From: Propionibacteriaceae bacterium
Lineage (GTDB): Bacteria > Actinomycetota > Actinomycetes > Propionibacteriales > Propionibacteriaceae
Assembly: GCA_017882685.1 (NCBI GenBank)
Contig: JADGPA010000125.1
Location: 1-34,565, forward strand
Direction: 5' to 3'
Length of the DNA: 34,565 bases
The stretch's first letter is position 1. Each line of letters opens with the position of its first letter. The notes under the pieces are model-generated. The model ran no database searches. It saw nothing but the letters and a program-made list of their open reading frames with translations, and was not told where the DNA came from. This document shows, piece by piece, positions 19,667 to 24,895 of the stretch. The position numbers were made by a program, and so were the translations under genes.

Positions 19667-20779
19667 ATGACCGACCAGCCCCAGGACGCCGGGGAACAGC
19701 TCGCAGCTTCCACTTCGGAGGCGTCGCTGCGGCGGACGGAGGCAAGGAGCGTCGAGATCGAGGCGCAGATCGCCAAGGATCCGTCCGGGTTTCGGGTGAT
19801 GACCGGCGACCGTCCCACCGGCAACCTGCACCTCGGCCACTATTTCGGGTCGCTGGCCAACCGGGTACGAATTCAGGACGCCGGCGTTGACACGTTCATC
19901 CTGATCGCCGACTACCAGGTGATCACCGATCGCGACGGCACCGGCCCGATCCAGGAACGCGTGCTGAGCATGATGGCCGACTACCTCGCCATCGGCATCG
20001 ACCCGGCGAAGTCCACGATCTACGCCCATTCCGCGGTGCCGGCACTGAACCAACTGCTGCTGCCGTTCCTCTCGCTGGTTACCGACGCGGAGTTGCGACG
20101 CAATCCCACCGTGAAGGCCGAGCTCGAGGCCACCGGCGACCGCCCGATGTCGGGGCTGCTGCTCACCTACCCGGTGCACCAGGCCGCCGACATCCTGTTC
20201 TGCAAGGCCAACCTCGTGCCGGTCGGCAAGGACCAGTTGCCGCACCTCGAACAGACCCGGGTGGTGGCCCGCCGGTTCGACGAGCGGTACGGCCGCGTCG
20301 ACCCGGCGCGTCCGATCTTCCCGCAGGCGGAGGCGCTGCTGAGCAAGGCCTCGACAGTGCTCGGCCTGGACGGCACCAAGATGAGCAAGACCAAGGGCAA
20401 CGTGATCGAGATCGGCATGGACGCCGACACGACCGCCCGCCTGATCAAGAAGGCGGTCACCGACTCCGACCGCTTCATCACCTACGACCCGCAGGCGCGC
20501 CCGGAGGTCTCGAACCTGATCATGCTGGTCACCCTTTGCACCGGCCGCGACCCGATCGAGATCGCGGCTGACCTCGGGGACGCCGGTGGCGGCGGGCTGA
20601 AGAAGCTGGTGACGGAGGCCGTCAACGAGTTCTTCGCCCCGATCCGCGCCCGCAGGTCCGAACTCGCTGCGGATCCGGGCCACCTGCTGGACGTGCTCCG
20701 CAAGGGCAACGCCTACGCCAACGAGGTGGGTGACGCGACCCTTGCAGAAGTCAGGGCCGCCATGAACATGACCTACTGA
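19667..20779 (+). CDS. trpS: Tryptophanyl-tRNA synthetase, TrpRS II-like
   Basis: Class I aminoacyl-tRNA synthetase charging tRNA-Trp. The signature motifs are present: HLGH at residues 55-58 (HIGH motif, in GDRPTGNLHLGHYFGS) and KMSKT at residues 238-242. There is an N-terminal extension of about 40 residues before the catalytic start, charged and probably disordered. The DRPTGxLHLGH context and LANRVRIQDAG resemble the second TrpRS type (as in Deinococcus TrpRS II and some actinobacteria) rather than the common GIQPTG form; some such enzymes resist indolmycin. Whether another trpS exists cannot be seen here. Length of 370 fits. The stop codon lies within the left arm of a hairpin. Confidence 0.93.
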   Translation: MTDQPQDAGEQLAASTSEASLRRTEARSVEIEAQIAKDPSGFRVMTGDRPTGNLHLGHYFGSLANRVRIQDAGVDTFILIADYQVITDRDGTGPIQERVLSMMADYLAIGIDPAKSTIYAHSAVPALNQLLLPFLSLVTDAELRRNPTVKAELEATGDRPMSGLLLTYPVHQAADILFCKANLVPVGKDQLPHLEQTRVVARRFDERYGRVDPARPIFPQAEALLSKASTVLGLDGTKMSKTKGNVIEIGMDADTTARLIKKAVTDSDRFITYDPQARPEVSNLIMLVTLCTGRDPIEIAADLGDAGGGGLKKLVTEAVNEFFAPIRARRSELAADPGHLLDVLRKGNAYANEVGDATLAEVRAAMNMTY

Positions 20780-20808
20780 ACGGAAAAGGAACCGTCCCCT
20801 TTCCGTTC
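20778..20808 (+). terminator. Hairpin overlapping the trpS stop, possible terminator or REP-like element
   Basis: GAACGGAAA (20778-20786) pairs perfectly with TTTCCGTTC (20800-20808), with two further G-C pairs inside around a small loop. There is no T-run after it. The inner sequence GGAACCGTCCCC resembles a motif I remember from dispersed REP-like repeats in many bacteria, so a mobile palindrome that landed at the gene end is an alternative. Confidence 0.45.
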
Positions 20809-23706: not shown

Positions 23707-23931
23707 TCAGAGTGCGCCGAACCCCACGGCGCGTACCTTGTCCTGCCCGAGGTCGATGTAGGCGATCTTGGTGGCCGGCACAAGCACCTTGCGACCCTTC
23801 TCATCGGTGAGGGCCACCACGCCGTCGTCGGCGAGGGCCTTGCGGAGGCTCGCCTCGATGCTGGCAGCGGTTTCCTCGGTCTCCACCGTGAGTTCGCGGA
23901 CCACGTGCTGAATGCCGATCTTGATCTCCAC
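23707..23931 (-). CDS. DUF3107 family protein
   Basis: A 74-residue actinobacterial protein of unknown function. The sequence VEIKIGIQHVVRELTVETEE, ALADDGVVALTDEKGRKVLVP and AYIDLGQDKVRAVGFG matches DUF3107, a small mixed alpha/beta domain. I place the start at the GTG (complement 23929-23931), because AAGGAG (complement 23938-23943) lies 6 bases upstream and the family normally begins with a MEVKIG-like sequence. A longer frame from 23961 would add 10 unsupported residues and bury the binding site. It lies downstream of a 24-bp hairpin that separates it from the signalling operon. Confidence 0.88.
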   Translation of the reverse strand: MEIKIGIQHVVRELTVETEETAASIEASLRKALADDGVVALTDEKGRKVLVPATKIAYIDLGQDKVRAVGFGAL

Positions 23932-24015
23932 CGTTATCTCCTTGCTGGACGCCGTCGCCAATCTACCTGCGGGACCGCCCGGACTCCGACCGCGTACGCC
24001 GAGAGCGCAATGCCC

Positions 24016-24073
24016 CTCCGACTTGTCAGAATCTCACTGACCTTGGGCGCAGTGAGATTCTGACAAGTCGGAG
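24016..24073. repeat. Perfect 24-bp inverted repeat (large hairpin)
   Basis: The left arm 24016-24039 (starts CTCCGACTTGTC, ends TCTCACTG) is the exact reverse complement of the right arm 24050-24073, around a 10-base loop ACCTTGGGCG. It stands 7 bases beyond the stop of the FHA gene on the minus strand and upstream of DUF3107. It is AT-richer than its surroundings and lacks a T-run. It may end the signalling operon, but its length and perfect symmetry also suit a dispersed palindromic or MITE-like element. Confidence 0.85.
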
Positions 24074-24079
24074 AGGGGG

Positions 24080-24895
24080 TCAGCCGGCGAAGGCGACCTT
24101 CTCGTCCTCGGTGGCCTTGCGCACCACGATCCGGGTCCAGGCGCCCACGTAGATGCGCTGCCCGGGGTTGAGCTCCACCCGTCCCTGTGGGATCGGCATC
24201 CCCGGCAGCGGCCCGGCAGCCGCGCCGACGAAGGTGCCATTGGCAGAGTCGAGGTCCTCGATCCACCAGCGGCTGCCGTCGGTGCTGAGCATGGCGTGGC
24301 GGCGGCTGCAGCCCGTGTCGAGCTCGCAGTCGATGTCGGGGAAGATGCCGCGGCTCTGCGAGACCCGGCCGATCAGGTTGCTCTCCTTCATCAGCGGCGC
24401 GATGTCGGGCAGGGACGGTGACGGCATCGGGTCCGACGATCCCTGCGCGGCGTACCAGTCAGGGTCGATCCACAACTCGGCCACCCACTCGACCACCGGA
24501 CGCGTCGGCGCGACCGGCGCGAGGGGAACTGGCGCGGCGGGTGCCTCGGGTGCCTCGGCGATGGGCGCATCTGCAGGAGCCTCCGGCGGAGGATCAGCGG
24601 GGGTTTCTGGAGCAGATTCGTCACCAGCGTCAGCGACAACGGCCGGTTCCTCCGCTGGAGCCGGAGCCTCCGGCAGGCTGCCCGTGGTGAAGTCGTAGCC
24701 ACACGCCTCGCAGAACAGTGCGTCGGCAACGTTCGGGGACTGGCAGTGCGGGCAGATCACCGGTTGCGCGGCGGACGGAGCGTCGACGGGAGGGACCTCC
24801 ACAGCCGATACCGGTGATTGAGCCTGTACCGGGAGCCCGCAGGTGTCACAGAAATCATGCGCACTGGTCACGTGTCCGGCCGGACAGATCGCCAT
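24080..24895 (-). CDS. FHA-domain protein with N-terminal zinc ribbons
   Basis: A 271-residue cytoplasmic phosphothreonine reader. Domains: a Cys-rich start (Cys4, Cys16, Cys19; CDTCG), a zinc ribbon (CPHC at 48-51, CEAC at 62-65), a Pro/Ala/Glu-rich linker (about 72-133), then a C-terminal FHA domain with GR (176-177), SRRH (197-200) and DLDSANGTFVG with Asn219-Gly220, the key phosphopeptide-binding residues. FHA proteins bind phosphothreonine made by Ser/Thr kinases; the PknG-like kinase and PP2C phosphatase of the same operon are natural partners. Unlike GarA (about 150-160 residues) it shows no ETTS-type phosphosite at its N-terminus. It starts one base after the VWA stop (TGACATG) and is the last gene of the operon. 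Confidence 0.9.
   Translation of the reverse strand: MAICPAGHVTSAHDFCDTCGLPVQAQSPVSAVEVPPVDAPSAAQPVICPHCQSPNVADALFCEACGYDFTTGSLPEAPAPAEEPAVVADAGDESAPETPADPPPEAPADAPIAEAPEAPAAPVPLAPVAPTRPVVEWVAELWIDPDWYAAQGSSDPMPSPSLPDIAPLMKESNLIGRVSQSRGIFPDIDCELDTGCSRRHAMLSTDGSRWWIEDLDSANGTFVGAAAGPLPGMPIPQGRVELNPGQRIYVGAWTRIVVRKATEDEKVAFAG

Follow-up and report, generated by a model that had tools for sequence, protein, structure and literature searches.

A dispersed palindromic repeat of actinobacteria and its association with the gene of a predicted AbiEi-Vsr nuclease

Background

Directly behind an FHA-domain gene of a Propionibacteriaceae bacterium lies a long and perfect palindrome. What kind of element is it, and does it have anything to do with the genes beside it? 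The window, i.e. the whole stretch of DNA that was analysed, comprises 34,565 nucleotides (contig JADGPA010000125.1). The original prediction placed the palindrome at the end of a signalling operon and offered a dispersed palindromic unit, a MITE remnant or an RNA-processing signal in place of a simple terminator; a single genomic copy, with a transcript 3' end mapped right after the stem, was to speak for an ordinary terminator.

Dispersed palindromes are widespread in bacteria. For one large group of them, RAYT has been proposed as the mobilising enzyme; for another, the CGTC REPs, a dedicated transposase is reported to be missing (PMC3733652). Here we describe a family of palindromes for which a different kind of enzyme can be suggested.

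The palindrome and its site

The two arms are as they had been described, 24 perfect bases each around a 10-base loop directly after the FHA gene. Read on the plus strand, positions 24016-24039 (CTCCGACTTGTCAGAATCTCACTG) and 24050-24073 are exact reverse complements of each other, with 12 of 24 arm bases being G or C by direct count. If one mismatch is allowed, the arms lengthen to 27 nt (24013-24039 and 24050-24076, 96% paired), giving an extended inverted repeat of 64 bp (24013-24076) with a C-rich left and a G-rich right edge. Within it lies a 54-bp core, CCGAC TTGTCAGA - N28 - TCTGACAA GTCGG (24018-24071), which is palindromic and so present on both strands. The hairpin centre ACCTTGGGCG (24040-24049) is atypical compared to the CTATAG-like self-complementary centre of most aligned copies. 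When 23996-24095 is folded, the energy is -63.6 kcal/mol, whereas shuffled versions average -34.0 (sd 3.5); this gives z -8.4, and none of 200 shuffles matched it. The palindrome is real and far beyond chance.

The extended palindrome starts 3 bases behind the stop codon (24080-24082) of the FHA gene, which occupies 24080-24895 on the minus strand and also encodes a double zinc ribbon (Pfam FHA E 2.6e-10). About 80 bp downstream of the palindrome follows a DUF3107 gene (23707-23931, minus strand, E 5.6e-28). Both genes are context and lie outside the repeat system. The FHA-DUF3107 spacer is 148 bp here, in comparison to 86 bp in G001 and 81 bp in G018, both without the repeat, and these differences are near the length of the extended repeat. 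Such a simple length difference does not fit G025 and G026, where the same junction without the repeat measures 157 and 112 bp. G014 and G028 have an additional gene at the junction, and G011, G017 and G015 have a different palindrome there, of the AAAGGGGAC-GTCCCCTTT type. This comparison covers those genus members whose junction was readable by script. Since relatives have no palindrome or another one at this place, the tie to a signalling operon looks incidental.

A second palindromic repeat of the window, at 20778-20808 (GAACGGAAAAGGAAC / GTCCCCTTTCCGTTC), resembles the AAAGGGGAC-GTCCCCTTT palindromes, which adjoin two RAYT genes of the genus.

A dispersed family and its anatomy

The genome (2.99 Mb in 215 contigs, 88.9% complete) contains 29 forward and 30 reverse matches to the arm with up to 3 mismatches, and the control gave 0. 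A covariance model built from 27 copies finds the repeat at 36 distinct places (72 hits over both strands). The dispersed palindromic unit that had been suggested is thus what the genome contains, and an ordinary single-copy terminator is not. The repeat unit can be written as CCGASTTGTCAGA-N28-TCTGACAASTCGG, 54 bp. Rfam gave chance microRNA hairpin models only, far below their gathering scores.

Among the 27 aligned copies the outer arms are nearly invariant and therefore look like a DNA recognition sequence; both ends are symmetric (CCGAS...STCGG). Total length also seems to be fixed. A scan of the genus with gaps of 18-26 allowed gave 54 bp in every copy among the matches listed, and with the gap left free all exact-arm copies in the loci of this genome had one single span; length was free to vary within the genus only, N28 being fixed by the search pattern in other taxa. 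The inner stem, on the other hand, differs by genome and covaries. Over 114 copies, pairing within a copy exceeds that of between-copy shuffles at inner positions 2-10, and at position 7 it is 0.87 within copies versus 0.32 between them. Such covariation could also come from correction of quasi-palindromes by template switching. An extension of the palindrome into the flanks beyond 54 bp was considered and rejected: pairing there is barely above that of shuffled flanks and is largely due to the C-rich left and G-rich right edges.

Location behind genes

Of the 36 places, 34 fit a regular expression and were examined for their neighbourhood (C16:21849 and C57 were left out), with gene positions taken from a simple custom caller. 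Twenty-nine of the 34 lie within 30 bp behind the 3' end of a gene; for just 2, a 5' end alone is as close as this. For random 54-bp windows in spacers, 3'-end proximity is expected at 12%, or at 27.5% if spacers are weighted equally. In two more copies (L353 and L358) the end of an ORF runs through the copy. The location behind genes may reflect purifying selection, an insertion preference or a function at transcript ends. It allows processing or protection of RNA ends, as the original prediction had it, as a side effect of the repeat.

Could the copies then be ordinary or tailless intrinsic terminators that share their sequence by chance? A very stable hairpin and the strong 3'-end location would suit this idea. 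However, a U-tract (at least 5 T of 9) accompanies just 1 of the 34 copies, and no terminator was called at the palindrome of the window. The outer sequence is conserved across several families. A search of 30 genomes of the genus left 24 without a match to the repeat, and matched palindromes bracket one gene family but none of 200 control genes (see below). We consider terminators highly improbable.

Gene ends can also enter the repeat. At L341 1877-1930, the stop codon of the nuclease gene described below lies within its own downstream palindrome, and the ends of other genes enter copies as well. Hence the repeat sometimes supplies the stop codon of the adjoining gene.

Spread among genomes

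Many copies were thus found when the arm was searched in its own genome, whereas among relatives the family is patchy. By a strict pattern, 6 of 30 genomes of the genus are positive (G000 with 29 copies, G024 with 33, G011 with 43, G027 with 22, G017 with 3 and G015 with 1). With up to 1 mismatch, 56 copies are found in G027 and 278, the highest count, in Microlunatus speluncae. Other carriers among the matches listed are Propionicimonas, Isoptericola, Luteimicrobium, Krasilnikoviella, Oerskovia and Cellulomonas, together with metagenome-assembled genomes of Propionibacteriaceae, Nocardioidaceae, Frankiales and Geodermatophilaceae. All 7 Oerskovia genomes carry the repeat, in 4 to 88 copies. 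In an even sample of the class, TGTCAGA-N28-TCTGACA occurs in 9 of 393 genomes, with a single hit in four of these. The repeat of the window had no blastn match in phages and plasmids; the viral pattern matches listed represent all allowed lengths, and none of the 13 of the right length that were read is palindromic inside.

Copies may also stand in series. Tandem palindromes with a period of 60-63 bp, about six helical turns, occur in Oerskovia and Luteimicrobium (L428 5301-5409 and 16842-16950; L430 17848-17956; L437 257-551), and Microlunatus has arrays of palindromes with a spacing of 104-107 bp.

The size and location of the repeat are REP-like, and so we asked about classical REPs moved by RAYT tyrosine transposases. 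Within the genus, a Y1_Tnp gene is present in all 6 repeat-bearing genomes versus 8 of the 24 others (P 0.005). Yet a search of 18 further genomes with the repeat gave no Y1_Tnp in any of them (PF01797, E<=0.01), and the 12 RAYT loci of the genus that were fetched are without this repeat; 2 of 7 examined adjoin another palindrome, the AAAGGGGAC-GTCCCCTTT type. On these grounds mobilisation by RAYT was rejected, and we give it hardly any credence.

The partner protein

Several copies occur in pairs ~1.1 kb apart (1.1-1.4 kb), and it was through these pairs that a partner gene was traced. In the genome of the window it lies on contig C181 (L341 949-1911, 321 aa) between two copies of the repeat. 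Clustering of neighbouring genes by blastp had ranked ABC transporters and ordinary genes first, with the nuclease appearing as a two-genome cluster only.

An AF2 model based on 36 homologues has a pLDDT of 91.5. Residues 4-199 match the AbiEi structure 6y8q (Z 11.4, 184 residues aligned, 4.6 A) and Rv2827c (Z 7.8). Residues 198-307 match NGO0050 (3hrl, Z 10.2), I-Bth0305I (3r3p, Z 9.7) and Vsr (1cw0, Z 8.8). AbiEi models of PADLOC recognise all 3 of 3 members (E 1.1e-17 to 4e-20); with Pfam at E<=1, 5 of 7 members have a DUF559 match, the best at 1.2e-5, and 3 of 7 have an AbiEi_4 match that does not reach the cut-off of that family. G201, E207, D239, E253, G256 and H259 are invariant in the 36 homologue sequences, E207, D239, E253 and H259 being candidates for an acidic/His catalytic set. 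The partner is predicted to consist of an AbiEi-antitoxin-like DNA-binding N-terminal region and a PD-(D/E)XK endonuclease domain of the Vsr/EDxHD type.

A second homologue in the same genome, on contig C120, is without palindromes. A search of viral_contigs confirmed no relative of the nuclease. The cassette on C181 is preceded by a gene at L341 1-807, presumably for isocitrate dehydrogenase; in both G011 and a JAJTCL metagenome-assembled genome, homologues of this gene also neighbour copies of the repeat.

Pairing of gene and palindrome

A profile search of the stop-to-stop ORFs in the fetched loci gave 10 matches, none of them more than 6 bp away from a copy; one broken gene accounts for two of the matches, one for each half. 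In a search of 80 genomes, 14 matches of at least 300 bits were found in 13 genomes, all among the 32 genomes that bear the palindrome, although this co-occurrence is biased by a profile that was seeded beside palindromes. Most high-scoring genes have a palindrome no farther than ~220 bp away.

Thirty loci were fetched by protein similarity; seven hold the profile's own genes, and the other 23 are independent of it. By manual count, 15 of these 23 have palindromes on both sides. In 11 they are of the TGTCAGA type or a near variant (G096, G105, G103, G104, G100, G135, G098, G097, G202, G218 and G126), and in 4 they are of other sequence (G125, G102, G061 and G130). The palindromes are one-sided in G106 and in G170, the latter at a contig end, and six loci are without a counted pair (G318, G144, G384, G151, G101 and G024), G384 having an imperfect palindrome on each side.

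An automated test used 47 homologues (L341 replaced L489, and three loci truncated at contig ends, L498, L501 and L513, did not enter it) and 200 control genes drawn from 235 available. Of the 47 homologues, 24 are flanked on both sides by matched palindromes, versus 0 of 200 controls (P ~1e-20): 15 of 27 top matches and 9 of 20 further paralogues. Palindromes of any kind were on both sides of 25 homologues and 2 controls. The test misses imperfect stems, and its seeding bias is smaller than that of the search for co-occurrence in 80 genomes. Some of the 23 homologues that failed it have visible imperfect palindromes and others have none, so that a part of the nuclease family may not be linked to palindromes. 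That palindrome and nuclease gene are associated we regard as extremely likely.

The association extends to palindromes of other sequence, spanning 36 to 58 bp around distant homologues. A protein of a Rhodococcus ruber plasmid, 25.5% identical, is bracketed by CCGAATGTCACAT palindromes. For a homologue on an unannotated phage clone, palindromes are confined to one flank. Within 200 kb, G125 has seven CGTCCGA pattern matches, five of them judged palindromic; a 200-kb sample of G061 has 2, which are non-palindromic, and three CGTCATA matches, two of which are the gene's own flanks.

Other AbiEi-Vsr homologues, in L515, L517 and L531 (G011, G017 and G026), are bracketed by CAAAGTGGAC...GTCCACTTTG palindromes. 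By the strict pattern, G026 is without the TGTCAGA repeat.

Do the dispersed copies follow the nuclease of their own genome? In 9 of 12 comparisons, several of which use sets of just 2-4 copies, the inner stems flanking the gene find their closest resemblance among dispersed copies from the same genome or from its own Oerskovia clade. The matching fails in G046, in one gene of Microlunatus speluncae and, after the gene's own flanking copy had been taken out of the set, in G103. The two nucleases of Microlunatus speluncae differ in the inner stems that flank them; 34 of 41 dispersed copies are more like the one type and 7 more like the other, and one of these 7 is identical to a copy that flanks a gene. 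In Oerskovia, the 4 genomes with the nuclease gene have 11-88 copies and the 3 without it have 4-9. Palindromes also occur where no nuclease can be recognised: none was found at E<=1e-10 in the palindrome-bearing G108, G111, G112, G099 and G155. G027, G024, G015, G017 and G209 have palindromes and only low-scoring homologues (67-181 bits), G024 being 72% and G027 80% complete.

For AbiEi, binding to 23-bp inverted repeats that form a pair in its own promoter has been reported (PMC7319586), and the arms of our palindrome are close to this length. The same source gives binding to inverted repeats in their own promoters for AbiEi and Rv2827c alike, and it is conceivable that the partner is an autoregulator that binds palindromes at its own gene, with dispersed copies being a regulon or titration sites; the short distance to most high-scoring genes would be expected from this. 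Nevertheless, the palindromes flank both sides of the gene, the dispersed copies gather at 3' ends with hardly any near a 5' end alone, and a residue set resembling an active site is invariant. An operator or decoy role is, in our estimation, quite unlikely.

Alternatively, the nuclease could be a defence enzyme, the palindromes marking or regulating self DNA. AbiEi-type regions are indeed part of the PADLOC defence library, and genome-specific inner stems could serve as labels. It is hard to see, however, why such marks should vary from a few copies to 278 and be lacking in near relatives, and we find the idea very improbable.

Dynamics in Oerskovia

At one Oerskovia locus, G107 and G110 share a nuclease with its palindromes, and G109 and G113 have a diverged nuclease in opposite orientation with other palindromes. 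In G112 only a remnant of a palindrome is left; the place is taken in G108 by 3.7 kb of other DNA, which contains no copies, and only a single flank was found in G111.

One dispersed copy of O. enterophila is absent in four aligned relatives. The 118 extra bp begin with a 29-bp near-direct repeat (27/29) of the sequence that follows. It is the only clean insertion, and among the further Oerskovia sites listed there is no clear target duplication. These observations bear on the suggestion of a MITE remnant, for which as such we see no support. In a search limited to PF01797, no parent transposon with these ends was seen; the palindromes bracket a gene whose predicted product is a nuclease and not a classical transposase.

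The Oerskovia locus with its two nucleases could be read differently, the gene being a guest. Palindromes would spread by replication slippage, template switching or an unseen enzyme, and the nuclease gene would merely insert into or between them. Two diverged alleles in opposite orientation within different palindromes, a remnant alone in G112 and several genomes with palindromes but no nuclease gene would agree with this, and ISPpu9, an IS reported to lie inside REPs (PMC8450116), would be a precedent. But most comparisons show the palindrome type tracking the lineage of the nuclease, also where distant homologues have palindromes of a different sequence, and matches of at least 300 bits occur once per genome in 12 of 13 genomes. 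We therefore think a guest gene unlikely.

Presentation of the hypothesis

We propose, with a probability of roughly 60%, that the palindrome of the window belongs to a REP-like family whose cognate enzyme is an AbiEi-Vsr nuclease. Each arm would be the binding site for one AbiEi-type module, and a pair of proteins would grip one palindrome; the predicted fold and the AbiEi precedent make this quite probable. The nuclease might then cut at a palindrome, next to one, or at a single-stranded hairpin. When the break is repaired, a palindrome might be copied to another place, either alone or with the complete palindrome-gene-palindrome cassette. Of the mechanisms that we can think of, cutting followed by copying during repair appears to be the best route of spreading, and we would put it at about even odds. 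Solitary copies, such as that of the window, would be non-autonomous progeny or scars, kept directly after stop codons as the least harmful place; the hairpin may there also influence the end of the transcript.

How does this compare with known systems? The REP/REPIN palindromes with their RAYT genes (GTAG REPs, REPtrons) are alike in being short dispersed palindromes behind genes, often paired, in enclosing a gene between copies of themselves, and in their genome-specific variants. Here, in contrast, the bracketed gene encodes an AbiEi-Vsr nuclease, the palindrome is longer and symmetric, and its TGTCAGA arms are conserved; GTAG REPs carry an unpaired GTAG tag at one end, whereas both ends are symmetric in our 27 copies. 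CGTC REPs, as described in PMC3733652, are likewise short dispersed palindromes and occur mostly in alpha-Proteobacteria; they have a stem of 8-9 bp and an unpaired tag at one end, and their terminal CGTC may read TGTC. Our repeat differs, in a comparison by description only, in its symmetric arms of ~20 bp and its actinobacterial hosts.

On the protein side, genes for EDxHD/Vsr-like homing endonucleases such as I-Bth0305I share the fold of the C-terminal domain (Z 9.7) and the idea of a selfish nuclease, but here that domain is joined to an AbiEi region, and the gene is associated with dispersed palindromes. The AbiEi antitoxins (6y8q, Rv2827c) share the fold of the N-terminal 200 residues, and their family binds inverted repeats (PMC7319586, in the part available); in our protein a nuclease-like domain is attached. 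Vsr/DUF559 endonucleases, e.g. VsrA of Caulobacter, are comparable in view of the DUF559 match and the Vsr fold, although flanking palindromes are not mentioned in the available part of PMC12907096.

A broader suggestion can be made more tentatively. The system may be a new class of prokaryotic mobile element, in which a homing-type AbiEi-Vsr gene bracketed by its own long palindromes increases these palindromes in number, and at times itself as well, by way of cuts and their repair; every lineage of the nuclease would have evolved a palindrome sequence of its own. It may also explain other dispersed palindromes without a transposase, e.g. the CGTC REPs. For this wider claim our confidence falls a little short of an even bet. 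We found no link between palindromic repeats and AbiEi, DUF559 or Vsr-like genes in a literature search to which subscription journals were mostly outside the scope, and novelty is to this extent provisional.

Implications of the hypothesis

If correct, there would be a second, unrelated family of enzymes with its own palindromes, and the origin of such repeats would become testable. A set of genes of the AbiEi/DUF559 type, so far known by domain only, would gain a function. Naturally matched pairs of a DNA-binding nuclease and its target would also become available.

In Luteimicrobium album (L464-L468), several pairs of copies stand 1.25-1.4 kb apart. Only L468 gave a nuclease ORF, which a frameshift seems to have split, and the other pairs may be decayed cassettes.
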